Assembly (NCBI RefSeq): GCF_003977755.1
Contig: NZ_RQWN01000004.1
Location: 248,001 to 312,000, forward strand
Origin: Haloterrigena salifodinae
GTDB lineage: Archaea; Halobacteriota; Halobacteria; Halobacteriales; Natrialbaceae
Length of the DNA: 64,000 nt
Reading direction: 5' to 3'
Below are positions 34,821 to 59,458 of this stretch, piece by piece (the stretch's first letter is position 1; each line of letters opens with the position of its first letter). A program made the position numbers and the translations under genes. Below the pieces are notes generated by a model, which was given only the letters and a program-made list of their open reading frames with translations, did not search any database and was not told the DNA's origin.

Positions 34821-35630
34821 ATGTTCGAGGAAGACGCATACAGGCTCGGATTCGGGACGTACAGTCTCACCGATGAGGACGGGATCGACGCCCTCGTGAC
34901 GGCGATCGAGTCGGGATACCGGCACCTCGATACGGCCCGCCTGTACGGCAACGAGGAAGAGGTCGGCGAGGCCATCGCCCGAGCCGACGTCGATCGCGAC
35001 GACCTGTTCGTCGCCACGAAGATCGCCCACTTCGAGGAACCGGAGAAGACGCCGGAGTACGTTCGAAACGGCGTCGAAGAGAGCCTCTCTCGGCTCGGAA
35101 TCGAGACGATAGATCTGCTCTACCACCACTGGCCCCGCGGCCGGGACGACATCGAGACTGTGCTCCCAGTCTTCAACGACCTCGTCGATGCGGGACAGGT
35201 CGAGCGCGTCGGCGTGAGCAACTACACACCCGCCGATCTGGAACTCGCCGACGAACTCCTCGAACAGTCGCTGTACGCGGTGCAGGCCGAGATGCATCCG
35301 TTCCTGCCCCAGGACGAACTCCGCGCAGCCGTTCGGGACCGCGACGCGTACTTCGTCGCCTACTCGCCGATCGCGCAGGGCGAAGTGTTCGATACCCCCG
35401 AGATCTCGGCGGTCGCCGACAAACACGACGTGAACGAGGCCGTCGTCAGCTTAGCCTGGCTCCTCTCGAAGAACGGCGTCGTTCCGATCCCCCGGTCCCA
35501 GACCACGGAACACATTCGGAGCAACCGCGAGGCGCTCGAGGTCGACCTGGACGAGGAGGATATCGAACGCATCGACGGTATCGATCGCCGGCTCCGCTGT
35601 GAGGACCCCGACTGGATGGAGTGGGAGTAA
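34821..35630 (+). CDS. Aldo/keto reductase
   Basis: A 269-residue NAD(P)H-dependent carbonyl reductase of the AKR superfamily, starting MFEEDAYRLGFGTYSLTDED. The catalytic tetrad is visible: Asp and Tyr in HLDTARLYGNEEEVG, Lys in LFVATKIAHF and His in DLLYHHWPRG. The C-terminal cofactor part PIPRSQTTEHIRSN binds the adenosine phosphate. It is the first gene of the catabolic region, and three putative IclR sites lie in its long upstream region. It may reduce a sugar- or cyclitol-derived ketone or aldehyde. Confidence 0.9.
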   Translation: MFEEDAYRLGFGTYSLTDEDGIDALVTAIESGYRHLDTARLYGNEEEVGEAIARADVDRDDLFVATKIAHFEEPEKTPEYVRNGVEESLSRLGIETIDLLYHHWPRGRDDIETVLPVFNDLVDAGQVERVGVSNYTPADLELADELLEQSLYAVQAEMHPFLPQDELRAAVRDRDAYFVAYSPIAQGEVFDTPEISAVADKHDVNEAVVSLAWLLSKNGVVPIPRSQTTEHIRSNREALEVDLDEEDIERIDGIDRRLRCEDPDWMEWE

Positions 35631-35862: not shown

Positions 35863-36951
35863 CTATCGGCTGACGCTGCTCGCCTCGCCTTCCTCGTCGT
35901 ACGTTCGGATGAGGTCGGCGATGAGTTCGACGTCGCGCTTCGATTCCTCCGGCGGCGTCCGCGGCTCGGCCTCCCCCTCGATACACTCGAGGAAGTGTCT
36001 CAGTTCGCGTTTGAACGGCTCGTCCGACGACGGGGTGTAGCGGGACTCCGTCGTCTCTTCCGTCCCGAGTTTGGTGCGGACGTCCGACGGCGTGTTCTTG
36101 ATGAACGCGTTCGAGAACTCGATCGACGCCGATCCCTCGGGAGCGTCGACGCGGATGCGCTCGTCGTACCACTTCCGATCGGTCGCGCCGGACTCGAGGA
36201 TACACCGGCGGTCTCCTTCGTATCGGAGCTGAGCGGTGACGTACTTCCAGCCCTTGAACACGTCGACGTGGTCGATCCGTTCGACCGATCCGAACGCGGA
36301 CCGGAGCGCGTTGACGTCGTGGCAGATGCTCTCGAGGTGGTACTCGTAGGCTTGCGTGAGCGTCTCATCGTCGGTTCCGACGGCGGCCTCGACCTGTTGT
36401 TGGCGCTTCGAATTGCTCTCTTCGATGAACGCGTCGTCGAGGTCGGCGTAGACGATGTCGTAGTTCTCCTCGATGACCGCGCCGACGTCCGGCGGAATGA
36501 CGGTGCTCGTGACGAGATCGATATCAGACAGCTCGTCCACTTCGGCCTGGAACTTCTGGAAACCGGGATCGAAGCGCTTCATGTAGCCGACCATGCAGAC
36601 CGCGTCCGTCTCCGCGGCCGCATCGATCACCTGCTGGGCGTCGTCGGGCGTCACGGCGACCGGTTTCTCGACGAACGTGTGCAGATCCGCCTCGAGGGCG
36701 GCAACGGCTACCTCCGCGTGGGTGTGCATCGGCGTGGTAATGACTACGCCGTCGAGCGTGTCGGCCTGATCTTCGATCAGCGCCGTACTTTCTGTGTACC
36801 GATGGGAGACGTTATACCGATCGCCGAACGTCTCGACCACGTTCTCGCCGGGGTCCGCGATTGCGTGGATGTCCGCCTTCGGCAGTTCCGCGAGGTACGG
36901 AACGTGCATGATCTGTGCGATAGCGCCGACACCGATGACTCCGAGCTTCAT
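35863..36951 (-). CDS. Gfo/Idh/MocA oxidoreductase (IolG-like), copy 1
   Basis: A 362-residue NAD(P)-dependent dehydrogenase. Rossmann motif: KLGVIGVGAIAQIMHVPYLA; the catalytic Lys is in FVEKPVAVTPDDAQ, and a candidate His/Asp pair appears in ICHDVNALRSAFG. Family members include myo-inositol 2-dehydrogenase (IolG), scyllo-inositol and glucose-fructose oxidoreductases. The start fits a TATA-like GCTATTTGTGG about 33 bp upstream. Divergent from an IolM-like dehydrogenase, which acts on the product of IolG in the Thermotoga pathway, so inositol 2-dehydrogenase is the leading hypothesis. The C-terminus is acidic. A paralogue is at 60869-61936. Confidence 0.85.
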   Translation of the reverse strand: MKLGVIGVGAIAQIMHVPYLAELPKADIHAIADPGENVVETFGDRYNVSHRYTESTALIEDQADTLDGVVITTPMHTHAEVAVAALEADLHTFVEKPVAVTPDDAQQVIDAAAETDAVCMVGYMKRFDPGFQKFQAEVDELSDIDLVTSTVIPPDVGAVIEENYDIVYADLDDAFIEESNSKRQQQVEAAVGTDDETLTQAYEYHLESICHDVNALRSAFGSVERIDHVDVFKGWKYVTAQLRYEGDRRCILESGATDRKWYDERIRVDAPEGSASIEFSNAFIKNTPSDVRTKLGTEETTESRYTPSSDEPFKRELRHFLECIEGEAEPRTPPEESKRDVELIADLIRTYDEEGEASSVSR

Positions 36952-37183: not shown

Positions 37184-38338
37184 ATGAAAGCGTTACTGCT
37201 TGATGCGGAGTGGAATCCGCGCTCCGAGTACGACCTTACGGATAGCGAGCGGGAAACACAGAAAGCACACAATAGCGCCCAGGTCTGGCAACATCCCGAG
37301 ATGAACGTCGAAGACAGACCCCGACCGGAACCTGAAGACGACGAGGTGCTTATCGAGGTCGCCTATGCGGGTGTCTGTGGCAGTGACTGCTCTATGATTC
37401 AGACCGACGAAGAAGGGTACATGCACTATTCGGCGTACACACAGTTCCCAAACGTAACCGGTCACGAATTCTCGGGGCGGATCGCCGAGACCGGTGATGA
37501 CGCAAACCTCTTCGAACCGGGCGAGCGAGTGACCTCGGAGGTCGTCGACTACTGTGGCCGATGTCAGCAGTGTCGGCGTGGCTTCCACGGCCACTGTGAG
37601 AACTTCGAACAGGTCGGCTTCACGATCCCCGGCGCGTTCGCGGAGTACGTCACCGTCCCAGAGAAAATCGTCTGGAGCGTCGAGTCACTCGCGAACGCCT
37701 ACGAGGACGAAGATGAACTGTTGCGAGCAGCAGCCACTATTGAGCCCAGCACCATTACCTACCACGGTATTTTCGTCCGCTCTGAGGGTGTCTTACCCGG
37801 CGATCACCACGTCTACCATGGAACGGGGCCGATCGGTCTCACTGGAATGAATCTCTCACGAGCGGCGGGTGCAGGCAAGGTTATCGGGTTCGATCCGTCA
37901 CCTGAACGACGGTCGATCGCGGCCGACCTCGGGTTCGACCACGTATATGACCCAACGGAGCAAGATCCCGTCGAGGTCATCGACAAAGTCACCGATGGTC
38001 GTGGTGCTGATGTCCACCTCGAAACTGCAGGTGCTGTTACTGAAACCTATCCAGTCATCCAGGAGACGCTGGCCGAGGAGGCTAACGTCGTCCACGTCAG
38101 CAATGCCAGCAGTGCGCCCAATCTCGCGACCAGGAAGTATCAGGGCAGCAGTGCACAACTATACGGCACGGAGGGACACACCGGACAACAGATTTACCCG
38201 CGAGTCATCCGTCTGATGAGCGCCGGACGACTCGATAATACGTCAATTATCACGTCGACGTATTCGCTATCGAATGCTGACAAGGCCATCGAACAGGCAG
38301 CAAAACGGGTCGACGGGAAGGTACTCATAGAGATATAA
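37184..38338 (+). CDS. Zn-dependent dehydrogenase, IolM-like, copy 1
   Basis: A 384-residue medium-chain dehydrogenase with the catalytic zinc motif AYAGVCGSD, NVTGHEFSG and the structural-zinc Cys cluster YCGRCQQCRRGFHGHCENF. The N-terminal extension (LDAEWNPRSEYDLTDSERE and then VWQHPEMNVEDRPRP) and the loop QTDEEGYMHY resemble Thermotoga scyllo-inosose 3-dehydrogenase IolM as I remember it. The reaction would oxidise a keto-inositol to a diketone with NAD+. A TATA box CTTTTATAACC lies about 34 bp before the ATG. Third codon positions contain visibly more A/T than in the paralogue at 40762, hinting at separate acquisition. Confidence 0.85.
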   Translation: MKALLLDAEWNPRSEYDLTDSERETQKAHNSAQVWQHPEMNVEDRPRPEPEDDEVLIEVAYAGVCGSDCSMIQTDEEGYMHYSAYTQFPNVTGHEFSGRIAETGDDANLFEPGERVTSEVVDYCGRCQQCRRGFHGHCENFEQVGFTIPGAFAEYVTVPEKIVWSVESLANAYEDEDELLRAAATIEPSTITYHGIFVRSEGVLPGDHHVYHGTGPIGLTGMNLSRAAGAGKVIGFDPSPERRSIAADLGFDHVYDPTEQDPVEVIDKVTDGRGADVHLETAGAVTETYPVIQETLAEEANVVHVSNASSAPNLATRKYQGSSAQLYGTEGHTGQQIYPRVIRLMSAGRLDNTSIITSTYSLSNADKAIEQAAKRVDGKVLIEI

Positions 38339-38436
38339 TACGAACAGGTCCTCGAGAAGAGTCTCTACTGTACCGATTCGATTGGAACCGTCTTTGTTCT
38401 AGCTGAAGGTCGCTCCGCTCGACGATCGGCTTGTCC

Positions 38437-39240
38437 TTACGCGCCGGTCGCGTCGTTCCAGTGGTCGATGTTCCGCTTCGCGTGGACGAGCCTGTCGTCG
38501 CGTTCGTTCTCGATCTCGATCGTGATCTGCCCGTCGTAGCCGATTTCGTCGAGCGCCTCGTCGACGGCCTCGAAGTCGATGACGCCCGCGCCGAGGTCGA
38601 CGAACGACGTCAGGAACACGAAGAGGCTATCGTACTGGACGTTCCCCGCCGAGAGGGTGTCGACGTGGTCCTGGAAGTCGACGGTCGGGTCGATGTCCTT
38701 GAGGTGGACGTACGCGATGTCGTCCGCGAACCGGTGGATGCCGTCGATGACGTCGCCGTAGGGCTGGTAGTGAGCCGTGTCGTACAGCAGTTCGAGGTTG
38801 TCGGGCGCGCGCTCGAGCCACTCCTCGATCTCTTCGGGGCTCTCGATCTTCGAGGCGCCGTGGTGGTGGATAACGGGCGTGACGCCGGCCTCGTCGGCGG
38901 CCGTACAGATCCGATCGAGCCACTCGTCGAACGTCGCGTCGTTGGTCTGGCCCCGCGGCGGCGGCAGAATGCCGAGGAAGCGCGCGTCGAGTTCGGCCGC
39001 GATGCCGGCGCCGTCGACCGCCGCTTCGACGTCCTCCTCGTCGTTGAGCCAGCCGGCCATGACGCAGTAGATGTCGAGGCCGTGTTCCTCGAGGGACTCC
39101 TGAAGTGAGTCGACGCCGATGTATTCCACTTTCCCGAGCCCGAGTTCGACGCCGTCGTACCGGCACGCGGCGAAGTCACCGAGACCCTCGGACAGTACCT
39201 CTGCTGGGTCGTACATGATGGTCGTGTATCCTACGCCCAT
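38437..39240 (-). CDS. IolE-like TIM-barrel protein, copy 1
   Basis: A 267-residue sugar-phosphate isomerase/epimerase-type (xylose isomerase-like) barrel starting MGVGYTTIMYDPAEVLSEGL. Metal or substrate residues are in VTPVIHHHGASKIES, LELLYDTAHYQPYGD, AYVHLKDIDP and ITIEIENERDD. These line up well with remembered Bacillus IolE (LVYHHHLGTG, LLYDTGHAY, VHFKD), an enzyme that dehydrates 2-keto-myo-inositol. A TATA box (ATTTATTATC) lies 28 bp upstream. Other possibilities are an epimerase such as 5-keto-L-gluconate epimerase (IolO). A paralogue is at 52513-53328. Confidence 0.78.
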   Translation of the reverse strand: MGVGYTTIMYDPAEVLSEGLGDFAACRYDGVELGLGKVEYIGVDSLQESLEEHGLDIYCVMAGWLNDEEDVEAAVDGAGIAAELDARFLGILPPPRGQTNDATFDEWLDRICTAADEAGVTPVIHHHGASKIESPEEIEEWLERAPDNLELLYDTAHYQPYGDVIDGIHRFADDIAYVHLKDIDPTVDFQDHVDTLSAGNVQYDSLFVFLTSFVDLGAGVIDFEAVDEALDEIGYDGQITIEIENERDDRLVHAKRNIDHWNDATGA

Positions 39241-39452
39241 ACAGAGTGGAGGACCGTCCGAGATAATAAATCATGGGGATAGCTGTCGCGGCGGATGGAC
39301 TCGAGCGCGACGGTCGACCGACCGTCGATAACGCGTTTCGTGAGTGCGGTCGATCCGACCCAGCGAAGTATGCGCCTTCACGGGGTGTGTGAACAGCAAC
39401 AGATGATGACCCTTTCAGTAGCTTTGTATTACAGCGGCTCGGACTAGCTGGT

Positions 39453-40622
39453 ATGACTGAGAACGTCGTCGTCCTCGGCGCCGGGTACGCCGGGGCCGGT
39501 GCTATCGCAACGCTCCAATCGAGACTCGAGACCGACGCTCGGCTGACGTGGATCGCCGACGTCGACTACCACCTCGTGCTCCACGAGGCCCACCGCGTCG
39601 TTCGGGATCCGGACGTCCGCTCGGACGTCACCTTCTCGGTCGACCTGATCGCCAATCCGTCGACCCAATTCATTAGAGACGAGGTAACCGGTCTCGACAC
39701 CGACGAGCGGGTCGTCGAACTCGCCGATAGCCAGGGCGTCGAGTACGATTACGTCATCGTCGGTCTGGGCAGCCAGACCGCCTACTACGGTATCCCCGGT
39801 CTCGAGGAGCACTCGCTGACGCTGAAGAGTCTCGACGACGCCCTCGAGATCCACGACACGGTCGAAGACGCCAGTCTGGAGGCAACCCGCGAGGAGCCCG
39901 CACAGATCGTCATCGGCGGGGCCGGCCTCTCGGGCATCCAGACCGCCGGCGAAATCGCGGAGTTTCGCGACAACCACCGCGCGCCGATCGACATTCATCT
40001 CGTCGAGGCCTTGGAAGAGATCTTCCCAGGCAACGATCCCGAAATACAGCAGGCCCTGCGCGACCTACTCGAGGAGGCCGGCGTCCAGATCCACACGGAC
40101 GACCCGATCACGGAAGCCACCGAGGATCACATCGAGTTCGACGAAGGCGAACCACTCGACCACGACATCCTCGTCTGGACCGGCGGCATCACCGGCCGCG
40201 ACGCCTTCGACGACGCCGACCTCGAGGACGAGCACAATCGGATGACGACGGGGGCGAACTTCCGGACCACCGACGAGCGCGTCTTCGCGATCGGCGACTC
40301 GGCGCTCGTCGACCAGGGCGATCAGCCCGCACCGCCGACCGCACAGGCCGCCTGGCAGGCTGCGGAAGTGGTCGGCGAGAACGTCGCTCGCGCCATCGAG
40401 AACCGGCCGCTGAAGACCTGGGAGTACGAGGACAAGGGAACGGTCGTCTCCGTCGGCGAGGAGGCCGTCGCTCACGAGGTCACGCCGGCGTTCGGCGTCT
40501 CCCTCCCGGTCGACACGTTCGGCGGCGTTCCCGCGCAGACCCTCAAAAAGCTGATCGCGGCCCGCTGGATCGCGGACATCACCTCCTGGAACGAGGCCCG
40601 CAAGTCCTGGTCGTCGCTGTAA
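39453..40622 (+). CDS. FAD-dependent oxidoreductase (NDH-2-like)
   Basis: A 389-residue pyridine-nucleotide-disulphide-type flavoprotein: FAD motif NVVVLGAGYAGAGAIATL, DYVIVGLGSQTAYYGIPG, NAD motif IVIGGAGLSGIQTAGEIAEF and the C-terminal FAD site RVFAIGDSALV. The order and length match type-II NADH dehydrogenases and related NAD(P)H-quinone oxidoreductases. No membrane helix is obvious; NDH-2 proteins attach peripherally. It may return NADH from the many dehydrogenases around it to the respiratory chain. TATA-like CTTTGTATTAC about 28 bp upstream. Confidence 0.85.
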   Translation: MTENVVVLGAGYAGAGAIATLQSRLETDARLTWIADVDYHLVLHEAHRVVRDPDVRSDVTFSVDLIANPSTQFIRDEVTGLDTDERVVELADSQGVEYDYVIVGLGSQTAYYGIPGLEEHSLTLKSLDDALEIHDTVEDASLEATREEPAQIVIGGAGLSGIQTAGEIAEFRDNHRAPIDIHLVEALEEIFPGNDPEIQQALRDLLEEAGVQIHTDDPITEATEDHIEFDEGEPLDHDILVWTGGITGRDAFDDADLEDEHNRMTTGANFRTTDERVFAIGDSALVDQGDQPAPPTAQAAWQAAEVVGENVARAIENRPLKTWEYEDKGTVVSVGEEAVAHEVTPAFGVSLPVDTFGGVPAQTLKKLIAARWIADITSWNEARKSWSSL

Positions 40623-40761
40623 GCGGTTTCAGAATCGCTGTTTTCGATCGGTTGGCTGAGAGTTATCGGCGGGACGCCCGACTGTCCGTCGCGATGTGCT
40701 CCGGAGTTCGCGTCGAGCCTCGAGAAGCGCGTCGATAGTACGTCGCTCGCTCGCTGCGGGA

Positions 40762-41916
40762 CTATATTTCGATCAGGACCTTCCCGTCGACGCGTTCGGC
40801 TGCCGTTCGAATCGCCTCGTCGGCGTTCGAGAGATCGAACGTCGACGTGATCAGCGGTCGGTTGTCGAGCTGGCCGGCGGCCATCAGCCTGATCACGCGC
40901 GGGTAGACCTGCTGTCCGGTGTGGCCCTCGGATCCGTAGAGCTGAGCGTTGTTGCCCTGGTACTTCCGGAGCGCGATGTCAGGATCGCTCGCGGCGTTGC
41001 TGATGTGGACGACGTTCGCGCCCTCCGCCAGCGAGTCCTCGATCGCGGGGTAGGTCTGGGAGACCGCGCCGGCGGTCTCGACGTGGACGTCGGCGCCCTC
41101 GCCGTCCGTGACCGACGCGATCGTCTCGACCGGATCGTCCTCGATCGGGTTGTAGACGTGTTCAAACCCAAGCGTGCGGGCGACCTCGCGGCGTTCGTCG
41201 GACGGTTCGAACGCGATCACCTTTCCGGCGCCCGCGGCCCGGGAGACGTTCATCCCGGTCAGGCCGATCGGGCCCGCGCCGTGGTAGACGTGGTAGTCGC
41301 CGGGGAGGACCCCGTCGGCTCGAGCGAACAGCCCGTGGTACGTGATGGTGCTGGGCTCGATCGTCGCGGCGGCCCGAAGCGCCTCGTCGTCCGTCTCGTA
41401 GGCGTCCCGGAGCGCCGAGACATCCCAGCAGAGCTTTTCCGGAACGGCGGCGTACTCCGCGAACGCGCCGGGGATCGTGAAGCCGAGCTGCTCGAAGTTC
41501 TCGCAGTGGCCCATAAATCCCTGCCGACACATGTTACAGCGGCCGCAGTAGCCGGTAACCTCCGCGGTGACGAGGTCGCCTTCCTCGAACAGTTGCGCGT
41601 CGTCGCCCGTCTCAACGACCTCGCCGACGAACTCGTGGCCGGTCACGTTCGGCAACCGGAGGTACGCCGAGTAGTGGACGTAGCCGTCCTCGTCCGTCTC
41701 GAGCATCGAGACGTCGCTCCCGCAGATGCCCGCGTAGCGAACGCGGACGAGCACTTCGTCGCCGTCCGGCGTCGGGCGCTCGCGTTCGGTGACGCGAAGG
41801 TCGGGATTTCGCCACACCTGCGAGGCGTTCATCGCCTTCTTTGATTCGCGTTCGGCGTTCGAAACGTCGTACTCCGCTCTGGGGTCCCACTCAGCATCCA
41901 CCACAAGGGATTCCAT
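40762..41916 (-). CDS. Zn-dependent dehydrogenase, IolM-like, copy 2
   Basis: A 384-residue paralogue of 37184-38338 that aligns without gaps over its whole length. It retains RYAGICGSD, the GHEFVG zinc ligand, the four-Cys cluster YCGRCNMCRQGFMGHC and the Rossmann region GAGPIGLTGMNVSRAAGAG. The C-terminus ends RVDGKVLIEI in both copies. A TATA box (CCTTATACC, 41940-41948) lies 28 bp before the ATG. It is more GC-rich than copy 1. The two may differ in substrate (e.g. scyllo- versus myo-derived ketones) or one may be a recent arrival. Confidence 0.85.
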   Translation of the reverse strand: MESLVVDAEWDPRAEYDVSNAERESKKAMNASQVWRNPDLRVTERERPTPDGDEVLVRVRYAGICGSDVSMLETDEDGYVHYSAYLRLPNVTGHEFVGEVVETGDDAQLFEEGDLVTAEVTGYCGRCNMCRQGFMGHCENFEQLGFTIPGAFAEYAAVPEKLCWDVSALRDAYETDDEALRAAATIEPSTITYHGLFARADGVLPGDYHVYHGAGPIGLTGMNVSRAAGAGKVIAFEPSDERREVARTLGFEHVYNPIEDDPVETIASVTDGEGADVHVETAGAVSQTYPAIEDSLAEGANVVHISNAASDPDIALRKYQGNNAQLYGSEGHTGQQVYPRVIRLMAAGQLDNRPLITSTFDLSNADEAIRTAAERVDGKVLIEI

Positions 41917-42024
41917 ACCACACCATTTGCCAGCATCCGGTATAAGGATTCGGAGCCGCTGCGGCCGTCGGCCATGAAGAAGAGAGCTCGGCCGGCGGGA
42001 ACTCGACGGACGGGGGCGGCGCCG

Positions 42025-43761
42025 TCAGTCGTCCCGTTCGAGGTCGGCGAGGTCCCACTTGCCGGTGACGATCGCACCGGAGTCTTCGTTGTCCGGTTCG
42101 ACGATGGCTTCGACGAGCGCGGGGCCGTCGTGGGCCAGGGCCTCCTCGAGCGTCTCGGTCAAGTTCTCGGGTTTGATGACGCGTTCGGTGAACTCGACGC
42201 CGAACGATTCCGCCATCTGAACGAAGTCGACGCCCTCTTCGAACGGCGTGTTGAGGACGCGGTCCCAGCCGTACTTGTCGACCTGCAGGTTCCGGATCGA
42301 CTTCCAGCCGTCGTTGTTCACGACGAGCCAGGTGACGTCGACGTCGTGTTCGACCGCGCAGTTGACTTCCTGGTTACACATCATGAAGCTGCCGTCGCCC
42401 TCCACGTCGACGACCTGCCTGTCGGGCCGGGCGAGCTTCGCGCCGATGGCGGCGGAGACGCCGAAGCCCATCGTCGAGAAGCCGCCACAGGAGATGTTCG
42501 TCCGGGGCTCGTACACCGGGAACTGCGGATTCGTGACCTCCTGTGGCTGGCCAGCGCTTGAGACGACGATCCCGTCTCGTTCGAGCGCCTCGCGCAGGCT
42601 CGCCAGGGCGCGCGAGATTGACATCGGCACGTCGTCCGTCTGTCGCTCTTCGACGAGTTCCTGCCACTCGGCCCACAGCCGCTGGATCTCGTCGTAGTAC
42701 TCGTTGTCTTCGGTACCGACGGGATCGACGCGGTCGGCGACTTCCTCGTGGAGCTGTCGCGTGACGACCTTCGAGTCGCCGAGGATGCCGACCTCGACGG
42801 GGTAGTTCTTGCCGATCTCCTCGTTGTCGATGTCGACGTGGATGAGCTTGCTCGGCGGGATCTCGAAGCTCACGCCCTGTTCGAACGAGGACGTGTGCAT
42901 GTCCGTGAACCGACAGCCGATCGCGAGCACGACGTCCGCGTTGCTCGCGAGTTCGTTGCCGGCCGTCGAGCCGATCCAGCCCGCGTAGCCGACGAACAGC
43001 TCGTGGTCCTCGGGGATGATCCCCTTCGCCTGGAAGGTCGGAATGACGGGCGCCTTGAGGTGTTCCGCGAGGTCCTGGACCTCGTCCCAGGCCTCGCCGA
43101 GCATACAGCCGCCGCCGGGGACGATAACCGGCCGGTCGGCCTCCGCGAGCAGGTCGGCGGCCTCGGAGACGGACTCCGGATCGCCGCCGGGACGGCTGTG
43201 GGTTCGCGTCTCCGCCGGCTCCGGAATCTCGACGTCGGCGGCGCCGCCCTGGACGTCCATCGGCACGTCGACGTGAACCGGGCCCGGCCGGCCCGTCGTC
43301 GCGACCTGGAACGCCCGTCTGAGGACTCGAGGCAGGCGTTCGACGTCGTTCACGACGAAGCTCTTCTTCGTGACCGGCTCCATTACGCTCGGGAAGTCGC
43401 CGGGTTTCTGTCGTTCGATCTCCTGGAGGATCCCCTGGCCGTACTCGTGGGTCTGAGGCGCGCCCGTGAAGACGACCATCGGAATCGAGTCGACGTAGGC
43501 CGTCGCGACGCCGGTGACCGTGTTCGTCGCGCCGGGACCGATCGACGTGAACACGGCGAGCGGATCGCCGCTGGCACGCGCGTAGCCGTCCGCGAGGTGG
43601 GTCGCGCCCTCCTCGTGTCGCGGTTGGATGACCTCGACCTCGGAGTCGTTGAACGCGTCGAGGAGGTTCGTGCTCCCGTGTCCGGGAATGCCGACCAGGT
43701 ACTCTACACCCTCTTTCTCCAGATACTCGGCGATAATCTCGCCTCCGGTAAGCGTGGGCAT
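42025..43761 (-). CDS. ThDP-dependent enzyme, IolD-like
   Basis: A 578-residue thiamine-diphosphate enzyme of the acetolactate-synthase superfamily. MPTLTGGEIIAEYLEKEGVE begins the PYR domain with the activating Glu in RHEEGATHLADGYAR; the central domain carries VLAIGCRFTDMHTSS; the PP domain has the ThDP motif VDVEGDGSFMMCNQE ... NNDGWKS. GIPGHGSTN near the N-terminus and RFTDMHTSSF resemble IolD (FGHGN, RYTDFATSS), the inositol-pathway hydrolase that opens the ring of the trihydroxy-dione. A TATA box ATATTTATGG (43784-43793) is 27 bp upstream of the ATG at 43761, which decides the start. Acetolactate synthase or another carboligase remains possible, but the pathway context favours IolD. Confidence 0.8.
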   Translation of the reverse strand: MPTLTGGEIIAEYLEKEGVEYLVGIPGHGSTNLLDAFNDSEVEVIQPRHEEGATHLADGYARASGDPLAVFTSIGPGATNTVTGVATAYVDSIPMVVFTGAPQTHEYGQGILQEIERQKPGDFPSVMEPVTKKSFVVNDVERLPRVLRRAFQVATTGRPGPVHVDVPMDVQGGAADVEIPEPAETRTHSRPGGDPESVSEAADLLAEADRPVIVPGGGCMLGEAWDEVQDLAEHLKAPVIPTFQAKGIIPEDHELFVGYAGWIGSTAGNELASNADVVLAIGCRFTDMHTSSFEQGVSFEIPPSKLIHVDIDNEEIGKNYPVEVGILGDSKVVTRQLHEEVADRVDPVGTEDNEYYDEIQRLWAEWQELVEERQTDDVPMSISRALASLREALERDGIVVSSAGQPQEVTNPQFPVYEPRTNISCGGFSTMGFGVSAAIGAKLARPDRQVVDVEGDGSFMMCNQEVNCAVEHDVDVTWLVVNNDGWKSIRNLQVDKYGWDRVLNTPFEEGVDFVQMAESFGVEFTERVIKPENLTETLEEALAHDGPALVEAIVEPDNEDSGAIVTGKWDLADLERDD

Positions 43762-43962
43762 ATGTAATGAATTACCCCGATGTGCCATAAATATTCGCCC
43801 TCACGTGTCGGTGGGCGAAGCCGGGCGACTGGAGGTGAGCGGTAGCCGTCTAGGCGCAGTCGTCGCCGCTCGCGTCTCGAGCCGGAATCCGCCGAAGCTG
43901 TGGCACCTGCCCACCACGCCGGCGGTCGAGTACGACCGGCTCGCGACCACGGACGCGCTCAG

Positions 43963-44235
43963 CTATTCGGTCCGGCGTTCGACGCTCACGGACTCCGAAC
44001 CGTCGACCGTAATCAGATAGCCCTCATACTCGAACCGAAGCGCCAGTGACGACGGGCCCGCTGTGGCGGAATTCACTAGGGCGTCGAGTGCCCCCGGATC
44101 GATGGTGTCGTATAATGGCGGTAACTGACTGGCTTCCCGGTCCGAAGCCGTCGCGACGCGTTTGACGACTTTCATCGAGACGGATTCCGCCGGGTGTCCC
44201 GCTCCAAAGGGGTCGGTTTTGTTTCTGTGTCCCAT
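43963..44235 (-). CDS. HalOD1 output-domain protein
   Basis: About 90 residues from an ATG at 44235 (an alternative lies at 44268). The segment LPPLYDTIDPGALDALVNSA followed by SLALRFEYEGYLITVDG and SVSVE matches the HalOD1 domain found at the C-terminus of haloarchaeal regulators and as stand-alone proteins. The function of HalOD1 is not known; it is thought to act as a signal output or interaction module. It lies convergent to no obvious partner, between the IolD-like and IolN-like genes. Confidence 0.7.
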   Translation of the reverse strand: MGHRNKTDPFGAGHPAESVSMKVVKRVATASDREASQLPPLYDTIDPGALDALVNSATAGPSSLALRFEYEGYLITVDGSESVSVERRTE

Positions 44236-44530
44236 CCCGTTGCTCACGATGACGTCGTGCGGGCACAAGAAGATTTTTCAGCGCAGAATGGCACTTCGAC
44301 CAGCGGATATTTCGCGTTCGCCGGAACGCCGCACCGCTTCAGCGGTGGCAGTCTGTGTGCCTGCAATGTCCCCCGAGAAGCTCGGTAATCAGTGTCCTTC
44401 TCCGCCTTCCGCCGATAGCGGCCCGTCGACGCCCGCAGGGATTTCGCGCGGTGGTTCGAACCGGACGTCGTCCCGAACTCGGTCGCACGAATCGGTACGC
44501 TCTTGCCCGATTCCGCGCTCACGTGTACGT

Positions 44531-45367
44531 ATGGGAATTCACAGCGACTGGAGCGATTGGCTTCCGCAGGCGATCGAGTCGGCCGAACCGGACGGCGTCG
44601 CCGTCTGGTACCTCGGCTGCAACGGGTTCGTCCTCAAGGGTCGCGAGGGAACGACGATCTTCGTCGATCCGTATCTGGGCCTCGGCGATCCGCCGCGGAT
44701 CATCCGGATGATTCCGGTCCCGTTCGAGCCGAACGACGTTCGCAGCGCGGACGCGATCCTCGCGACCCACGAGCACGTCGATCACGTCCACGGGCCGTCG
44801 CAGGCGCCCATCCTCGAGAAGACGGGCGCGTCCTTCTACGGACCGGACGAGTCGGTCGCCGTCGCTCGAGACGACGAGGAGTGGGCAAACGACTACGACG
44901 TGACCGACGAGCAGCTGATCGAGGTCACAGAGGGTGACTCGTTCGGCGTCGGCGAGTTCGAGATCCACGTCGAGCCGGCCCACGACCCCGACGCGAGCCA
45001 CCCGGTCTCGTACGTCGTCGAACACGAGGCAGGCACGTTCTTCCACGGCGGCGACTCGAAACCGGCCGCGGAATTCGACGCGATCGGATCGCGCTACGAC
45101 ATCGACCTCGGCGCATTGGCGTTCGGGACGGTCGGCGTGATGCCCCATCGCGAGACTGGGGCGCCGACCGTGACGAAGTGGTACAACGACGACAATCAGC
45201 TGCTCGAGGCCGCGAGCGATCTCCGGCTCGATCGGCTCCTGCCGAGCCACTGGGACATGTGGAAGCGGCTCACCGCGGATCCGACCGCACTACACCATCA
45301 CGCGCGAAGCTTCGAGCACCCGCAGCGCCTCGAGATCGCCGAAATCGGCGACCGCCTCGACCTCTGA
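44531..45367 (+). CDS. Metallo-beta-lactamase-fold hydrolase (UlaG/IolN-like)
   Basis: A 278-residue protein starting MGIHSDWSDWLPQAIESAE. The metal-binding motif is ILATHEHVDHVHGP (HxHxDH), followed by EPAHDPDASH, FHGGDSKPA and the C-terminal His in LLPSHWDMWK. The fold matches UlaG-type lactonases and the Thermotoga inositol-pathway hydrolase IolN, which cleaves the diketo-inositol made by IolM. Since two IolM-like dehydrogenases are close by, this role is attractive, though unproven. The frame upstream of 44531 is Arg/Ser-rich and rejected. Confidence 0.8.
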   Translation: MGIHSDWSDWLPQAIESAEPDGVAVWYLGCNGFVLKGREGTTIFVDPYLGLGDPPRIIRMIPVPFEPNDVRSADAILATHEHVDHVHGPSQAPILEKTGASFYGPDESVAVARDDEEWANDYDVTDEQLIEVTEGDSFGVGEFEIHVEPAHDPDASHPVSYVVEHEAGTFFHGGDSKPAAEFDAIGSRYDIDLGALAFGTVGVMPHRETGAPTVTKWYNDDNQLLEAASDLRLDRLLPSHWDMWKRLTADPTALHHHARSFEHPQRLEIAEIGDRLDL

Positions 45368-45452: not shown

Positions 45453-46472
45453 CTACAGCGACGGGATGACCTCGTCGTTCATGACCTCGAACAGCTGCTC
45501 GGGTTCGGGGCTAGTGTTCCCGACCGCGATCCGATCGAAGCCCATCTCGGCGTACGCTTCGAGCTGGGCCGCGATCTCCGCGGGGTCGTCGGCGATCAGG
45601 AACTTCTCCTCGATCTCCTCGCGGGTCGCCTTCTCGCCCTCGGCCTCGATCTCGCGCGGGTCCGCCAGCGCCCGGTCGAAGACGTTCTGGGTCGTCGCGT
45701 GCCACGGTCGCGTCGCCTCAAGCGCCCGCTCGTAGTCGGGGTGATAGGATGCCGTCACGAGCAGCGTCGTCTCGATCGCGTCCGGGTCGTTGCCCTCCTC
45801 TTCGGCGTAGCGACGGATCGCGGGGTAGAGCCGGTCGGTGTACTCCTCGCCCTTCTTGACCGTGACGAACCCGTCGGCGTATCGCGCCGCGAGCCGGGCG
45901 GTGCTCGGTCCGTTGGCCGCGATATGGATCTCCGGCGACCGCTCGGCCATCGTATACAGTTTCGCCTCGTCGAGCTCGAACCGCTCCCCGTCGTAGGTGA
46001 CGAATCCGTCCTCGTCGATGCGCTCGCGGACGTCGTCGCTGACCCACTCGTCGTCGCCCCAGAGGGCGCGGATGATCTCGAGGGCCTCCTCGAGTCGGTC
46101 CCGGCGTTCGGGGTACTCGGGCCAGTCGAACCCGAGCGGCGTCTCGTTCATCGCCTCGCCAGTGGAGAGCCCGAGCAGCACCCGGTCGTCGTGGAGTTGC
46201 TGGAGCGTCGTGAACGCCTGCGCGATCATGCCGGGGTGGTAGTGGCCCGTCGCGGGCGTTACGCACGTGCCGATCGGTCCGTCCAGTCGTTCCGTTGCGG
46301 CGCCGAGCCAGGACCACGCGAACGCCGACTCCGCGTCCGTGTGGAACCACGGGTGGAAGTGATCCGACGTCCAGACGGTCTCGTAGTCGCCGGCCGTGGC
46401 CTGTTCCCCGTAGTCCAGCAGCGCGGACGGATCGTACTGCTCCTGATGAGCCATGTAATCGATTTCGACCAT
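45453..46472 (-). CDS. F420-dependent-type LLM-class oxidoreductase
   Basis: A 339-residue luciferase-like TIM barrel of the F420-dependent glucose-6-phosphate dehydrogenase (TIGR03557-like) group. Signature pieces: VWTSDHFHPWFHTDAESAF, TCVTPATGHYHPGMIAQAF, LLGLSTGEAMNETPLGFDW and HIAANGPSTARLAARYADGF. The conserved Trp/His near residue 30-35 matches the active site of these enzymes. The ATG at 46472 (MVEIDYMAHQEQYDPS) is preferred over 46502. It probably oxidises a hydroxyl group of a sugar-like substrate with coenzyme F420, which haloarchaea make. Convergent with the IolN-like gene. Confidence 0.8.
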   Translation of the reverse strand: MVEIDYMAHQEQYDPSALLDYGEQATAGDYETVWTSDHFHPWFHTDAESAFAWSWLGAATERLDGPIGTCVTPATGHYHPGMIAQAFTTLQQLHDDRVLLGLSTGEAMNETPLGFDWPEYPERRDRLEEALEIIRALWGDDEWVSDDVRERIDEDGFVTYDGERFELDEAKLYTMAERSPEIHIAANGPSTARLAARYADGFVTVKKGEEYTDRLYPAIRRYAEEEGNDPDAIETTLLVTASYHPDYERALEATRPWHATTQNVFDRALADPREIEAEGEKATREEIEEKFLIADDPAEIAAQLEAYAEMGFDRIAVGNTSPEPEQLFEVMNDEVIPSL

Positions 46473-46679
46473 CGTCGACTGACAGTACGGAGAAGAGCGC
46501 ATTAGGCTTTGTGCTCGGCGACCGCGCGATCGCCGTCGGCGATCCGTTACCGACGGCTCGAGGGCGCGTGCAGTCAGTAGGGACGGGCGGCAAAACAGAG
46601 GGACAGTGACGGAAGCCCCGTCGGCGGATCGGCGCGTCGAGCCGACCGCTCCGCGAGGGACTACGAAGGCGGTGGTGCG

Positions 46680-47918
46680 TTAGGTACGCGGTTTCCGGTG
46701 TTCCTCGACGACGTCCCAGTCGAGTTTGATACCGAGTCCCGGTTCGTCGGGGACCTCGAGGCGCCCGTTCTGGATGAGCGGCTCGTCGCGCGCGACGAGG
46801 TCGTCCCACCACGAAACCTCTCGAGCGTGGTACTCGACGGCGACGAAGTTCGGCACCGTCGCACCGACGTGGGCGGTCGCGACCGTCGCGATCGGGCTGC
46901 CGATGTTGTGGGGGATGAGTGCCTGGTAGTAGGCCTCGGCCATGTCCGCGATCTTCTTCGTCTCGGCGATCCCGCCGGTTTTGGGCACGTCGGGGGCGAG
47001 GAAGTCGACGGCCTGCTCCTCAATCAGGTCGCGGAAACCGTGGCGACCGTAGCGGTTCTCGCCGGTCAGCAGCGTCGTCTCGACGCTGCGTTGCAGTTCT
47101 CGCATCGCGTCGGTGTTCTCCGGCGGCAGGGGATCCTCGACCCAGGCGAGGTCGTACGGCTCGATCGCCCGACAGAGCTTCTTGGCCGTCTCGGGGCTGA
47201 AGTTCCAGTGGAGGTCGACCGCGACCTCGGCCTCGTGGCCGATCTCGTCGGTGACGGCCTCGACGACCGAGCGCTTGTGCTCGACCTCCGGCGGGTCGAA
47301 GTGCCGCGAGAGGGTGTCGATGTCGCGGCCGGACGGAACGTCGAGGTCGAACTTGATCATATCGAACCCGTCGTCGACGGCCATGCGCGCGGCCTGGGCG
47401 TACGCTTCGGGTTCGTACGTCGTCTCCTCCTGGCCCTCCTCGGCCGAGGAGACCATCGCCTCGCCGGCGTGACAGTCGGCGTAGACGCGGACCTCCTCGC
47501 GAGTCTTCCCCCCGAGCAGCTGATAGATTGGCTGGTTGAGCAGCTTCCCAGCCGCGTCCCAGAGCGCGATCTCGACGCCGCTGATGGCGATCGTCCCGAC
47601 GCCCCACTGGGAGCCCCGCCCCGAGAGGCTCTCGCGCATGAGGTTGTAGAGCCGCTCGACGTCGAGCGGGTTCTCCCCGACGAGCACCGGTTTGAGGTAG
47701 TCCGTGACGATCTCGTGGACGCCCGGCGAGGGGTAGGCCTCGCCGATCCCGGTCACGCCGCGATCGGTCTCGACGGTGACGATCGTCCACGGGAAGTTGC
47801 CGTCGATGACGAACGAGTCGATGTCGGTGATCTCGGCCGTCGGGCCGTCCCGTTCGGGCTGGTCGTCGAAGTCGGTCCACATCGTCGCCGCGAGCGTGGA
47901 TGCAAAGTCCTCGTACAT
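46680..47918 (-). CDS. Enolase-superfamily (mandelate racemase-like) dehydratase
   Basis: A 412-residue protein with the N-terminal lid domain (FVIDGNFPWTIVTVETDRGV, GIGEAYPSPGVHEIVTDYLK) and the barrel. Metal ligands: Asp in VAVDLHWNFSPETA, Glu in DLAWVEDPLPPENTD and Glu in LTGENRYGRHGFRD. The acid/base His is in ALIPHNIGSPIA. It belongs to the MR subgroup that dehydrates sugar acids (galactonate, gluconate, mannonate types). It could dehydrate a hexonate formed after ring opening. The start at 47918 is the first ATG of the frame; a second at 47882 would drop 12 residues. Confidence 0.85.
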   Translation of the reverse strand: MYEDFASTLAATMWTDFDDQPERDGPTAEITDIDSFVIDGNFPWTIVTVETDRGVTGIGEAYPSPGVHEIVTDYLKPVLVGENPLDVERLYNLMRESLSGRGSQWGVGTIAISGVEIALWDAAGKLLNQPIYQLLGGKTREEVRVYADCHAGEAMVSSAEEGQEETTYEPEAYAQAARMAVDDGFDMIKFDLDVPSGRDIDTLSRHFDPPEVEHKRSVVEAVTDEIGHEAEVAVDLHWNFSPETAKKLCRAIEPYDLAWVEDPLPPENTDAMRELQRSVETTLLTGENRYGRHGFRDLIEEQAVDFLAPDVPKTGGIAETKKIADMAEAYYQALIPHNIGSPIATVATAHVGATVPNFVAVEYHAREVSWWDDLVARDEPLIQNGRLEVPDEPGLGIKLDWDVVEEHRKPRT

Positions 47919-48361: not shown

Positions 48362-49855
48362 TCAGCTGTACCAGCGTTCGATCTGGATGGTCTTCTCGGT
48401 GTAGAAGTTGACCGCGTCCTCGCCCTGGGCGTGGAGGTCGCCGAAGAACGACGCCTTCCGGCCGCCGAAGTGGAAGAAACCCATCGGGGCGCAGACGCCG
48501 ACGTTGATCCCGATGTTGCCCGCGTCGACCTCGTACTTGTACTGGCGAGCCTCGCTGCCGGACTCGGTGTAGAGCGAGGAGGCGTTGCCGTACTTCGTCG
48601 AGTTGACCATCTCGATGGCCTCATCTAGGTCCTCGGCCTCGGCGAGACAGAGCACCGGCCCGAAGATCTCTTCCTGTGCGATCTCCATGTCGGTCGTGAC
48701 GCCCTTGAGGAGCGTCGGACCGAGGAAGTTGCCGTCCAGTTCGGGGTGTTCGAAGTCCCGGCCGTCGAGGACGAGTTCGGCGCCTTCCTCGAGCGCGTTC
48801 TCGATCAGGCCGAGCACGCGCTCGCGCGAGTCGTCGGTAATCAGGGGGCCGACTTCGGTCTCCTCGTCGACGCCGGCGCCGACAGTGAGGTTCTCCGCGG
48901 CGTCGATCAACTGCTCGCGGAGGTTGTCGTAGACGTCGCCGACGCCGACGACGACGTCGTTGGCGAGACAGCGCTGCCCGGCGTTGCCGTAGACGGAGCC
49001 GATGATGTTCGGCACCGCGTCGTCGACTTCCGCGTTTTCGGTGACGACGGCGTAGTTCTTCGCTCCGCCCTGGGCCTGGACACGCTTGCCGTGCTGGGCG
49101 GCGGTTTCGTAGACGTGCTTGGCGACGGGCGAGCTTCCGACGAAGGAAACGCCGGCGATATCGTCGTGCTCGAGCAGCGTGTTGACGGTCTCGGCGCCGC
49201 CGTTGACGAGGTTGACGACGCCGTCGGGGAAGTCGACCGCGTCGACGGCCTCGAAGATGAGCTGGGAGCTCAGCGGGACCTTCTCGCTGGGCTTGAGGAT
49301 GAACGTGTTCCCGGACGCGACCGCGTACGGCAGGAACCACAGCGGGATCATCGCCGGGAAGTTAAACGGCGTGATGGCGGTGAACACGCCCAGGGGTTGG
49401 CGGACGGCGTGCTCGTCCATGCCGGATGCGACGTCCTCGACGTTGCCGCTGCCCTCGCGCATCATGTTGGGCATTCCGCAGGCGACTTCGACGTTCTCGA
49501 TACCGCGCTTGATCTCCCCGCGCGCCTCCGCGATGGTCTTCCCGTGCTCGCGGGAGAGGGCCGTCGCGATTTCGTCGAGCCGATTCTCGAGTTCGGTCTT
49601 CAGGTCGAAGAGGTACTGGACGCGCTCGACGACGGGCGTCTGTCGCCACTCCTCGAACGCTTCGTTTGCGGTCTGTACTGCGTCGTCGACGGTCTCGACG
49701 GTCGAGTGCTCGACCGTCGCGAGTTCGTCTCCCGTCGCGGGATCGACGACGGGCTGGGACGTCTCGCTCGCGGGCGTGGTCCACTCGCCGCCGACGTAGT
49801 TGTCGACGTGGTCACGAACGGCTGGTGAAACGGCTCGCTCTCTTTGCTCGGACAT
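48362..49855 (-). CDS. CoA-acylating methylmalonate/malonate semialdehyde dehydrogenase (MmsA/IolA-type)
   Basis: A 497-residue aldehyde dehydrogenase. The CoA-dependent subgroup is shown by VQAQGGAKNYAVV (Asn where most family members have the general-base Glu) and the catalytic Cys in GNAGQRCLAND. Other motifs: TPFNFPAMIPLWFLPYA, ILKPSEKVPLSSQ, EIFGPVLCL. It converts malonate or methylmalonate semialdehyde plus CoA and NAD+ to acetyl- or propionyl-CoA. In Bacillus, IolA of this family is the last step of inositol breakdown. Divergent from iclR with two putative operators between. The ATG at 49855 fits the family start; valine breakdown is the alternative role. Confidence 0.9.
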   Translation of the reverse strand: MSEQRERAVSPAVRDHVDNYVGGEWTTPASETSQPVVDPATGDELATVEHSTVETVDDAVQTANEAFEEWRQTPVVERVQYLFDLKTELENRLDEIATALSREHGKTIAEARGEIKRGIENVEVACGMPNMMREGSGNVEDVASGMDEHAVRQPLGVFTAITPFNFPAMIPLWFLPYAVASGNTFILKPSEKVPLSSQLIFEAVDAVDFPDGVVNLVNGGAETVNTLLEHDDIAGVSFVGSSPVAKHVYETAAQHGKRVQAQGGAKNYAVVTENAEVDDAVPNIIGSVYGNAGQRCLANDVVVGVGDVYDNLREQLIDAAENLTVGAGVDEETEVGPLITDDSRERVLGLIENALEEGAELVLDGRDFEHPELDGNFLGPTLLKGVTTDMEIAQEEIFGPVLCLAEAEDLDEAIEMVNSTKYGNASSLYTESGSEARQYKYEVDAGNIGINVGVCAPMGFFHFGGRKASFFGDLHAQGEDAVNFYTEKTIQIERWYS

Positions 49856-49988
49856 GCGAGTGAGTGGTTGTGGTACGCACACAAATACGTTACGCTCGAA
49901 CCGATGTTATCGCGCGAGACACCCCCGACCGCTCCCGTCGAACGGGGCTCGGGACGAGTCAGATTCTCGATGACGCTCGAGAGCGCAC

Positions 49989-50031: not shown

Positions 50032-50062
50032 AATTTAGTGGCAGTGAGTGTTTGTCTGGCGC

Positions 50063-50830
50063 ATGGCAAAGACGACGAAACCGAGAACGATTCAGGCGGT
50101 GGGGATTACGCTCGAGATTATCGACTACCTGCACGAGCACGATAGCGCCCGGATCACCGAGATCGCGAACGAACTCGGACGAGCGAAAGGCACCATCCAT
50201 TGTCACCTGGCCACCCTGCTCGAGAAGGAACACGTCATCAAGAATGGGAACGAGTACCAGCTCAGTCTCCGCTACCTCGAACTCGGCGAGGGAGTGAAGG
50301 ATCGGCTGGGGTTCTACGACGTCGTCACCGACGAACTGGACGAACTGGCCGAAGAGTCCGGCGAGTTGGTGCAGTTCGCGACGGAAGAACACGGCCGCGC
50401 GGTGTACCTGTACAAGACGGGCGGCGAGCGGGCCGTCCAGACCGCCTCGTCGGTCGGGAAACGGGAGTACCTCCACTGCCTCGCGCTCGGCAAGGCCATC
50501 CTCGCGTACACCCCGCGCGAGCGCGTCGAAGAGATCATCGATCAACACGGGTTGAAGCGGTACACGCCCCAGACCATCACCGACCGCGAGGAACTCTTCG
50601 ACGAACTCGAGACGATCCGCGAGCGCGGGTACGCACTCGACAAGGAGGAGAAGATCGAGGGACTACACTGCGTCGCAGCGCCGGTCATGGCCGACGAGGA
50701 CGACGTCCTCGGCGCCGTCAGTCTCTCCCGACCCTTGAGTCGGATGACGGGCGATCAGTTCCAGGAAGAAATTCCGAATATGGTCACCCGCTCCGCAAAC
50801 GTTATCGAGATCAACGCGAAGTACTCCTGA
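50063..50830 (+). CDS. IclR-family transcriptional regulator
   Basis: A 255-residue regulator. The winged helix-turn-helix is at residues 9-65 (IQAVGITLEIIDYLHEHDSA, ELGRAKGTIHCHLATLLEKE), and the C-terminal effector domain contains LHCLALGKAILAYTPRERVE and GLHCVAAPVMADEDDV. A TATA-like CAATTTAGTGG lies 28 bp before the ATG at 50063, which supports that start over a GTG at 50048. Haloarchaeal IclR proteins control sugar catabolism. Location within the gene set and the surrounding palindromes make it the likely regulator of the region. Confidence 0.9.
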   Translation: MAKTTKPRTIQAVGITLEIIDYLHEHDSARITEIANELGRAKGTIHCHLATLLEKEHVIKNGNEYQLSLRYLELGEGVKDRLGFYDVVTDELDELAEESGELVQFATEEHGRAVYLYKTGGERAVQTASSVGKREYLHCLALGKAILAYTPRERVEEIIDQHGLKRYTPQTITDREELFDELETIRERGYALDKEEKIEGLHCVAAPVMADEDDVLGAVSLSRPLSRMTGDQFQEEIPNMVTRSANVIEINAKYS

Positions 50831-51301: not shown

Positions 51302-52402
51302 ATGCGCGCTGTCGCACTGTTTCCGGACGGCCCAGAACTGCGTGTCATCGAAAAACCGAGACCGACCCCCGAGAAGGGCGAGGCGCTGATCCGAACCGTC
51401 GCCGTCGGAATTGATGGCTCGGACAGGCGCATCGCGGCCGGCGAAATCGGCGGCGACGTTCCCGACGGCGAGGACCACCTCGTCATCGGCCACGAGGCGG
51501 TCGGCGTCGTCGAAGAGCCGAACGGAACCGACCTGACGAAAGGCGACGTCGTCGCCCCTCTCGTGCGACGACCCGTCGACGATGAGTCGAGATTCGCGGC
51601 CAACGGCGAACTCGACATGGCTCCACCCGAGAGCCTTCACGAGTGCGGAATCACGGGGGCACACGGGTACATGGCAGAGTTTTTCACCGCTCGTTCCGAG
51701 TATCTCGTTTCGGTCCCCGAATCGCGTGCGGCGTACGGGTTCTTCGTCGAACCGACGAGTCTCGTCGAGAAGGCGCTCAATCAGGCGGCCGCGGCGCGGT
51801 CCGGGTTCGAGTGGCGGCCGTCGAGCGCGTTCGTTCTCGGGAACGGCAACCTCGGACTGCTCGCACTGACGCGACTCGAGACCGGCGACGAGTTCGAGCG
51901 AACCTACTGCCTCGGCCGCCGGGACCGACCGGATCCGACGATCGACATCATCGAAGGCGTCGGCGGTACCTACGTCGACTCGAGGGAACTCTCGCTCGAC
52001 GAGTTTCCCGCGGTTCACGAACCGGTCGATTTCGCCTTCGAAACGACGGGACACCCCGCCCACGCCGTCGAAGCGGTGGACGCGCTCGCTCCGAACGGCG
52101 TCGTGACGCTCCAGGGGATTCCGGGCTCGTCGTCGACGTTCGACATCGACGGGGGCGCATTCCACACGGAACTCGTCGTCACCAACAAGGCTATCCTCGG
52201 CGTCGTCAACTCACGACGGTCTCACTTCCGTGCCGCCGCCGAGTGGCTCCGCGACACGCCGGAGTCGGCGCTCGACGCACTCGTGACCGGCGTCTACGGA
52301 CCGGACGAGATAGACGAGGCACTCGCTGACTCCGAGGAGACGATAAAGACGGTCGTCTCGTTCGATCGCCTAGATCGAACGAGTCGGTTCCGTCTCGAGT
52401 GA
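51302..52402 (+). CDS. Glucose-dehydrogenase-like Zn-dependent MDR protein
   Basis: A 366-residue protein of the haloarchaeal glucose 1-dehydrogenase family (MRAVALFPDGPELRVIEKPR). Zinc-site pieces: GIDGSDRRIAAG, where Asp takes the place of the usual Cys as in halophilic Gdh, and IGHEAVGVVEEPNG. GAHGYMAEFFT and FVEPTSLVEKAL are family signatures; the nucleotide site is LGNGNLGLLAL followed by YCLGRRDRPDPTIDIIE. It would oxidise an aldose or cyclitol with NAD(P)+. Putative IclR sites upstream suggest it belongs to the regulon. Not necessarily a glucose enzyme: other haloarchaeal copies serve other sugars. Confidence 0.87.
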   Translation: MRAVALFPDGPELRVIEKPRPTPEKGEALIRTVAVGIDGSDRRIAAGEIGGDVPDGEDHLVIGHEAVGVVEEPNGTDLTKGDVVAPLVRRPVDDESRFAANGELDMAPPESLHECGITGAHGYMAEFFTARSEYLVSVPESRAAYGFFVEPTSLVEKALNQAAAARSGFEWRPSSAFVLGNGNLGLLALTRLETGDEFERTYCLGRRDRPDPTIDIIEGVGGTYVDSRELSLDEFPAVHEPVDFAFETTGHPAHAVEAVDALAPNGVVTLQGIPGSSSTFDIDGGAFHTELVVTNKAILGVVNSRRSHFRAAAEWLRDTPESALDALVTGVYGPDEIDEALADSEETIKTVVSFDRLDRTSRFRLE

Positions 52403-52512
52403 CCCGATTCGCCACTGGCAGACACACTGTCGACGCGTTTCCGGCCGAGCGCCGCACAAACGACCCATGAACCGTCGGAAGCTATTTTTCCATGGAAGAC
52501 ATTCGCTATCGC

Positions 52513-56133: not shown

Positions 56134-56190
56134 TGCTGTATACCTCCGTGAATCGCTGCGTGCGAGCCGCGTTGGTTCGAGTGCTGTGCG

Positions 56191-57099: not shown

Positions 57100-57101
57100 G
57101 G

Positions 57102-58046: not shown

Positions 58047-58068
58047 TGTTTGATCCCGTTGGCGTCAT

Positions 58069-59436: not shown

Positions 59437-59458
59437 ATGGACAGTGTTATTCGCACCC

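Follow-up and report, generated by a model that had tools for sequence, protein, structure and literature searches.

A candidate phosphorylation-free gene cluster for inositol catabolism in haloarchaea

The window investigated here is a stretch of 64,000 nucleotides from the haloarchaeon Haloterrigena salifodinae (RefSeq assembly GCF_003977755.1, 4.96 Mb in total; contig NZ_RQWN01000004.1, positions 248,001 to 312,000). A preliminary description placed parts of two inositol routes, one known from Bacillus and one from Thermotoga, side by side at 37184-45367. The catabolic cluster extends far beyond this interval, over roughly 34.8-61.9 kb of the window (Table 1). We tentatively read it, with slightly less than even confidence, as a catabolic cluster whose substrate would be inositol or a closely related cyclitol, and which would encode a kinase-free route of seven steps. 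We are a shade more hesitant about the specific proposal, namely that haloarchaea would degrade inositols by a new phosphorylation-free pathway. In this pathway, a thiamine diphosphate (ThDP) enzyme other than IolD would open the ring, an F420-type enzyme would oxidise 5-deoxy-glucuronate, and a dehydratase and an HpaI-type aldolase would yield pyruvate and malonate semialdehyde.

In the proposed route, an ABC transporter would import the substrate under an IclR-family regulator. Inositol would be oxidised to inosose by a Gfo/Idh dehydrogenase or, in the case of other isomers, by IolM (step 1), an IolE-like TIM barrel would dehydrate inosose to trihydroxycyclohexane-1,2-dione (step 2), and the ThDP enzyme would open this cyclic 1,2-dione hydrolytically to 5-deoxy-glucuronate (step 3). 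The F420-type LLM dehydrogenase, or an accessory dehydrogenase, would then oxidise the aldehyde or hemiacetal of 5-deoxy-glucuronate, giving 5-deoxy-glucarate or its lactone (step 4); where present, a UlaG-like protein may open the lactone. An enolase-superfamily dehydratase would form 4-hydroxy-2-oxoadipate from 5-deoxy-glucarate (step 5), the HpaI-type aldolase would cleave it to pyruvate and malonate semialdehyde (step 6), and an IolA-like (methyl)malonate-semialdehyde dehydrogenase (MMSDH) would turn the latter into acetyl-CoA and CO2 (step 7). All seven proposed reactions are atom-balanced, and a kinase would not be needed anywhere. We infer the substrate, all of these reactions and their order, as the basis is homology, motifs and gene company.

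The observations themselves concern gene content, family assignments and co-occurrence. In a set of 392 Halobacteriales genomes, 28, covering 13 genera, encode the ThDP enzyme (E <= 1e-200), and the same 28 and no others encode the LLM dehydrogenase (E <= 1e-100; Fisher p 2e-43, a p-value that ignores relatedness). Genome-wide, the acid-sugar dehydratase occurs in all 28 of these genomes and 20 others, IolM in 25 and three others, and MMSDH (E <= 1e-200) in 22 and two others. Within 20-60 kb around the ThDP and LLM genes, every one of the 28 clusters contains an IolE-like TIM barrel, a Gfo-type dehydrogenase, the acid-sugar dehydratase and an IclR regulator, while HpaI (27/28), IolM (25/28), MMSDH (23/28) and the UlaG-like gene (3/28) are partial companions. 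Three genomes without IolM (L151-L153) carry a single gene each for the Gfo dehydrogenase, TIM barrel, ThDP enzyme, LLM dehydrogenase, dehydratase, HpaI aldolase and MMSDH, contiguous and accompanied by IclR and ABC genes; we take this block as the putative minimal pathway. In genome G086 (L111, 10916-13080), IolM and Gfo remain, with HpaI and the acid-sugar dehydratase present as shortened fragments, and this cluster looks decayed.

The ThDP enzyme had been labelled IolD in the preliminary description. For 42025-43788 this label does not hold, given a score of 280 bits on the IolD model TIGR04377 (cut-off 715) and placement outside the IolD clade; identity to IolD is ~27%. In a tree built from tblastn-anchored open reading frames (ORFs), the enzyme groups with rhizobial, Priestia and Arthrobacter enzymes of ~46% identity in a separate clade that includes neither IolD nor the IlvB of this genome. 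What survives of the earlier label is a histidine following GxxG near the cofactor, shared with IolD (FGHGNV) and with cyclohexane-1,2-dione hydrolase (GFIGHTSH; sequence checked), and kept as the His of GxxGHG in 37/37 clade members. In cyclohexane-1,2-dione hydrolase, this active-site-region residue is His28, which acts in ring cleavage. The histidine is absent at this position in acetolactate synthase (ALS), glyoxylate carboligase (Gcl), sulfoacetaldehyde acetyltransferase (Xsc) and the other archaeal paralogues compared. Two genomes (L154, L155) also carry a second ThDP paralogue, ~69% identical, that lies next to genes for a ribose-type ABC transporter, with a GFO3-like gene and HpaI nearby in L154.

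IolE, also named in the preliminary description, fares better as a relationship than as an assignment. The two TIM barrels (38437- and 52492+) score 74 and 78 bits on the IolE model TIGR04379, against a cut-off of 290. Compared with solved structures, however, their profile finds IolE first (3cny, E 2e-13; 9zmu, 3e-7), and they share the HHHxG and VHxKD motifs with it. For TIM barrel b, the predicted fold (pLDDT 93) puts IolE at rank 1 in Foldseek and rank 3 in VIA (Z 28.1); epimerases lie close, including 2zvr of T. maritima (Z about 26), and the model does not separate IolE from epimerases. GFO1, one of the two Gfo/Idh dehydrogenases, has IolG as its best NCBIfam match, at 113 bits and under the cut-off of 355, and a homologue of GFO2 is the sole Gfo-type dehydrogenase of the minimal clusters. 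Elsewhere, Gfo/Idh enzymes are generally known to form 3-keto sugars, for which partner TIM barrels serve as epimerases, lyases or hydratases. If the cluster degraded a 3-keto sugar or a glycoside instead of a cyclitol, this would fit the matches of the TIM model to YcjR (3-keto-glucoside 4-epimerase) and to 2-hydroxy-3-keto-glucal hydratase, and that of GFO1 to DgpA1. We nevertheless consider this unlikely, since it leaves the IolM membership (see below), the IolE-first profile, MMSDH and the ring-dione-type ThDP enzyme unexplained.

In the oxidative half of the proposed inositol route, MMSDH, at 532 bits, is the sole protein in the genome above the TIGR01722 cut-off (448.5), and its presence points to malonate semialdehyde. 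The LLM dehydrogenase scores 200.2 bits on the F420-dependent glucose-6-phosphate dehydrogenase family TIGR03557, under the cut-off of 210.4. Its motifs SDHFHPWFH and GEAMNE are kept in 28/28 clusters, as in F420-dependent alcohol and glucose-6-phosphate dehydrogenases. The HpaI-type aldolase matches Pfam PF03328 and scores 211 bits on TIGR02311, below the equivalog cut-off of 369; the known substrate of HpaI is the one-carbon-longer homologue of 4-hydroxy-2-oxoadipate. On the GarL model the aldolase reaches 196 bits, nearly equal to its HpaI score, which would suit a route in which the ThDP enzyme splits inosose directly (retro-benzoin) to a dialdose. The LLM and other dehydrogenases could oxidise this to an aldarate, and the dehydratase and an HpaI/GarL-like aldolase would then give pyruvate and tartronate semialdehyde. 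Such a route seems quite improbable, as the IolE-like barrel (28/28) and MMSDH (23/28) would have no role in it.

Two IolM-like dehydrogenases with the N-terminal extension and TDEEGY loop of Thermotoga IolM had been described in the window, and this holds. Both proteins, each of 384 aa, pass the NCBIfam IolM model NF041097 (curated equivalog cut-off 450 bits) at 537 bits (IolMa, 37184+) and 551 bits (40762-), and genome-wide no other protein exceeds this cut-off. Both are ~40% identical to the Thermotoga-type IolM structure 3ip1; in the alignment, the N-terminal extension AEWNPRSEYD...VWQHPE corresponds to AKWDPRPEFK...VWRYPE of 3ip1, and the TDEEGY loop to TDEDGY. At the level of sequence, they are confirmed as true IolM-family members. 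A Gfo gene is present in every cluster, whereas three complete clusters do without IolM; the role of IolM is therefore probably that of an accessory dehydrogenase, which might act on other isomers of inositol.

IolMa has a third-position GC content (GC3) of 0.65, vs 0.79-0.91 across the 12 other genes measured, and is closest to IolM of Halomarina (79%) and Natronococcus (77%). In H. turkmenica and several other relatives, its position is occupied by another Gfo gene, GFO3. The low GC3 and the presence of GFO3 at the same place in relatives suggest that IolMa is likely a recent import and that accessory dehydrogenases have been exchanged at this site. A swap of IolM for Gfo as a general rule, hinted at by 20-kb windows, is ruled out, as the wider regions show Gfo in 28/28 clusters; the local exchange of IolMa and GFO3 stays.

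The protein at 44531-45367 had been described as UlaG/IolN-like and assigned to the IolN step of the Thermotoga route. By family match it is indeed UlaG-like, with a metallo-beta-lactamase fold, scoring 90 bits on the model for UlaG, L-ascorbate-6-phosphate lactonase (PRK11709, cut-off 306). It is not IolN, however: it is not among the matches of the IolN model NF041098 in its own genome, and the proteins that pass this model (loci L068, L069) belong to the creatininase family PF02633. Judged by family, genuine IolN is a creatininase-family protein, so the idea of a UlaG-like IolN is wrong. IolN and IolO are each found in 0/28 haloarchaeal clusters, and IolO has no match in the source genome. 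In most bacterial IolM loci recovered, IolG and IolO homologues and creatininase-type IolN adjoin IolM and no relative of the ThDP enzyme in the window was detected, several short contigs stopping before partners could be seen. Haloarchaeal IolM loci are the reverse, with the ThDP relative present and IolN and IolO absent. On a contig (L065) of a Bathyarchaeota metagenome-assembled genome, IolM occurs with homologues of creatininase-type IolN and IolO, so other archaea may possess an inositol route like that of Thermotoga.

These findings bear on whether an IolM branch could work in parallel to the IolE/ThDP branch, with inosose oxidised to 3-dehydro-scyllo-inosose, a 1,3-diketone, and opened in the manner of IolN by the UlaG-like or another hydrolase. 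Two genuine IolM members near a UlaG-like hydrolase, and IolM in 25/28 clusters, speak for such a branch. We hold it to be even less probable than direct splitting of inosose, given that creatininase-family IolN and IolO are missing, the UlaG-like protein occurs in 3/28 clusters and three clusters have no IolM; by textbook mechanism, moreover, a 1,3-diketone is not the 1,2-dione or acyloin that a ThDP enzyme requires. The earlier view of two inositol routes in one cluster is thus borne out in that the cluster is of inositol type, hybrid and equipped with two IolM, but of the Thermotoga set only IolM is present, and IolB of the Bacillus set is absent. The genes common to all clusters instead point to a single route, with Bacillus-like front chemistry, a non-phosphorylating oxidative tail and IolM as an accessory. 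Least probable of all is an ALS-like carboligase within a loose catabolic island encoding no single pathway: the highest NCBIfam scores of the ThDP enzyme are to ALS models (below cut-off) and haloarchaeal megaplasmids are generally known to gather catabolic genes, but the genome has a separate IlvB that groups with ALS in the tree, the ThDP and LLM genes share the same 28 genomes with company conserved over 13 genera, and the ThDP enzyme bears the ring-dione histidine.

Several points weigh against the proposed inositol route. The IolG-, IolE-, HpaI- and LLM-like proteins all fall under their NCBIfam cut-offs, and their substrates could therefore differ. By identity, the ThDP enzyme is nearer to ALS than to IolD, and the tree leaves its placement relative to IolD unsettled. 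The LLM protein is closest to the F420-dependent alcohol dehydrogenase 1rhc, and aldehyde or hemiacetal oxidation may not fit. IolM, despite its presence in most clusters, has no firm step in the route, and MMSDH is missing from 5/28 clusters. The 20 genomes that have the acid-sugar dehydratase without the ThDP gene mostly carry relatives of 70-77%. A shared regulatory palindrome was not found upstream of the genes; palindrome scores barely exceed those of three mononucleotide-shuffled sets, and sites are weak or absent at several genes.

Table 1. Genes of the cluster, with window coordinates
Feature	Position	Strand	Remarks
Aldo/keto reductase (AKR)	34821..35630	+	accessory; 21/28 clusters
GFO1, Gfo/Idh/MocA dehydrogenase, IolG-like	35863..36951	-	proposed inositol dehydrogenase (step 1)
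IolMa, IolM-family Zn dehydrogenase a	37184..38338	+	NF041097 537 bits; low GC3; at GFO3 place of relatives
TIM barrel a, IolE-like, xylose-isomerase-type	38437..39240	-	proposed inosose dehydratase
FAD/NAD(P) oxidoreductase	39453..40622	+	4/28 clusters; outside core
IolM-family Zn dehydrogenase b	40762..41916	-	NF041097 551 bits; IolM in 25/28 clusters
ThDP-dependent enzyme	42025..43788	-	proposed cyclic 1,2-dione hydrolase, IolD step; true start perhaps 43758
UlaG-like metallo-beta-lactamase-fold hydrolase	44531..45367	+	3/28 clusters; possible lactonase, not IolN
F420-type LLM dehydrogenase	45453..46502	-	true start perhaps 46469; exact co-occurrence with ThDP enzyme
Enolase-superfamily acid-sugar dehydratase	46680..47918	-	PF13378/PF02746; 28/28 clusters
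MMSDH, CoA-acylating, IolA-like	48362..49882	-	TIGR01722 532 bits
IclR-family regulator	50048..50830	+	28/28 clusters
Glucose-dehydrogenase-like MDR enzyme	51302..52402	+	PF16912; 10/28 clusters
TIM barrel b, IolE-like	52492..53328	+	true start perhaps 52513; this type in 26/28 clusters
Sugar ABC transporter: ATPase, two permeases, binding protein	54976..59460	-	
HpaI-type pyruvate aldolase	60038..60835	+	PF03328; TIGR02311 211 bits; 27/28 clusters
GFO2, second IolG-like Gfo/Idh/MocA dehydrogenase	60869..61933	-	ORF reaches upstream to 62227

By the ThDP protein, the nearest named relatives are H. salifodinae (100%) and H. turkmenica (99%). The contig resembles haloarchaeal megaplasmids, and a tyrosine-recombinase-like gene lies close to the cluster edge (window 28902-30038).

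Compared with known systems, the cluster shares with the Bacillus-type inositol pathway (iolABCDEG) an IolG-like dehydrogenase, an IolE-like TIM barrel, a ThDP ring-opening candidate and an IolA-type dehydrogenase. It differs in that its ThDP clade is separate from IolD and that IolB has no match in the source genome (in a search that gave matches in control genomes); no kinase, including one of IolC type, was noticed among the cluster ORFs, though no search aimed at IolC was made. Where the Bacillus-type pathway has an isomerase, a kinase and IolJ, the haloarchaeal cluster would use oxidation, dehydration and HpaI aldol cleavage. The Thermotoga pathway runs through IolG-IolM-IolN-IolO (Rodionova 2013, as cited in PMC5931981 and PMC12632266). 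It has in common with the cluster the IolM family, a Gfo dehydrogenase and a sugar ABC transporter; in place of creatininase-type IolN and IolO, the haloarchaeal clusters conserve ThDP and F420-type enzymes, with IolM probably accessory.

Cyclohexane-1,2-dione hydrolase (2pgn) has the same ThDP fold and the same histidine after GxxG, but its identity to the window's enzyme is low, its substrate is another one and it is not known from an inositol cluster. The ~46%-identical enzymes are the nearest relatives found outside Halobacteria and share the GHG motif. In rhizobia, Thalassospira, Priestia and Arthrobacter (L163-L167, L185), their genes lie close to a HisD-like gene, and genes for sugar ABC transporters are often in the neighbourhood, as in the window. 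The HisD-like gene and the GMC oxidoreductase genes that often accompany it set these neighbourhoods apart; they may represent a catabolic pathway of unassigned kind. The non-phosphorylating oxidative sugar routes generally known from haloarchaea (for pentoses and others) likewise oxidise, dehydrate and then cleave or oxidise, are kinase-free and have IclR regulators, whereas the proposed route would start from a carbocycle in need of prior ring opening.

A 2022 genome survey describes inositol degradation by known gene clusters as so far limited to bacteria, with no archaeal cluster deemed functional (PMC9430895). We found no description of a haloarchaeal inositol pathway in the open-access literature, a scope outside which most subscription journals fall. 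Some caution applies to automatic annotation: the H. turkmenica copy of IolM is already named iolM by NCBI, as scyllo-inosose 3-dehydrogenase, a name that may imply a reaction which haloarchaea do not carry out. If our reading is true, inositol breakdown in these archaea would follow a new design that dispenses with phosphorylation. The candidate cluster is conserved in haloarchaea that can be cultured, so inositol catabolism in archaea can be put to a direct test, and a third design is predicted for it.

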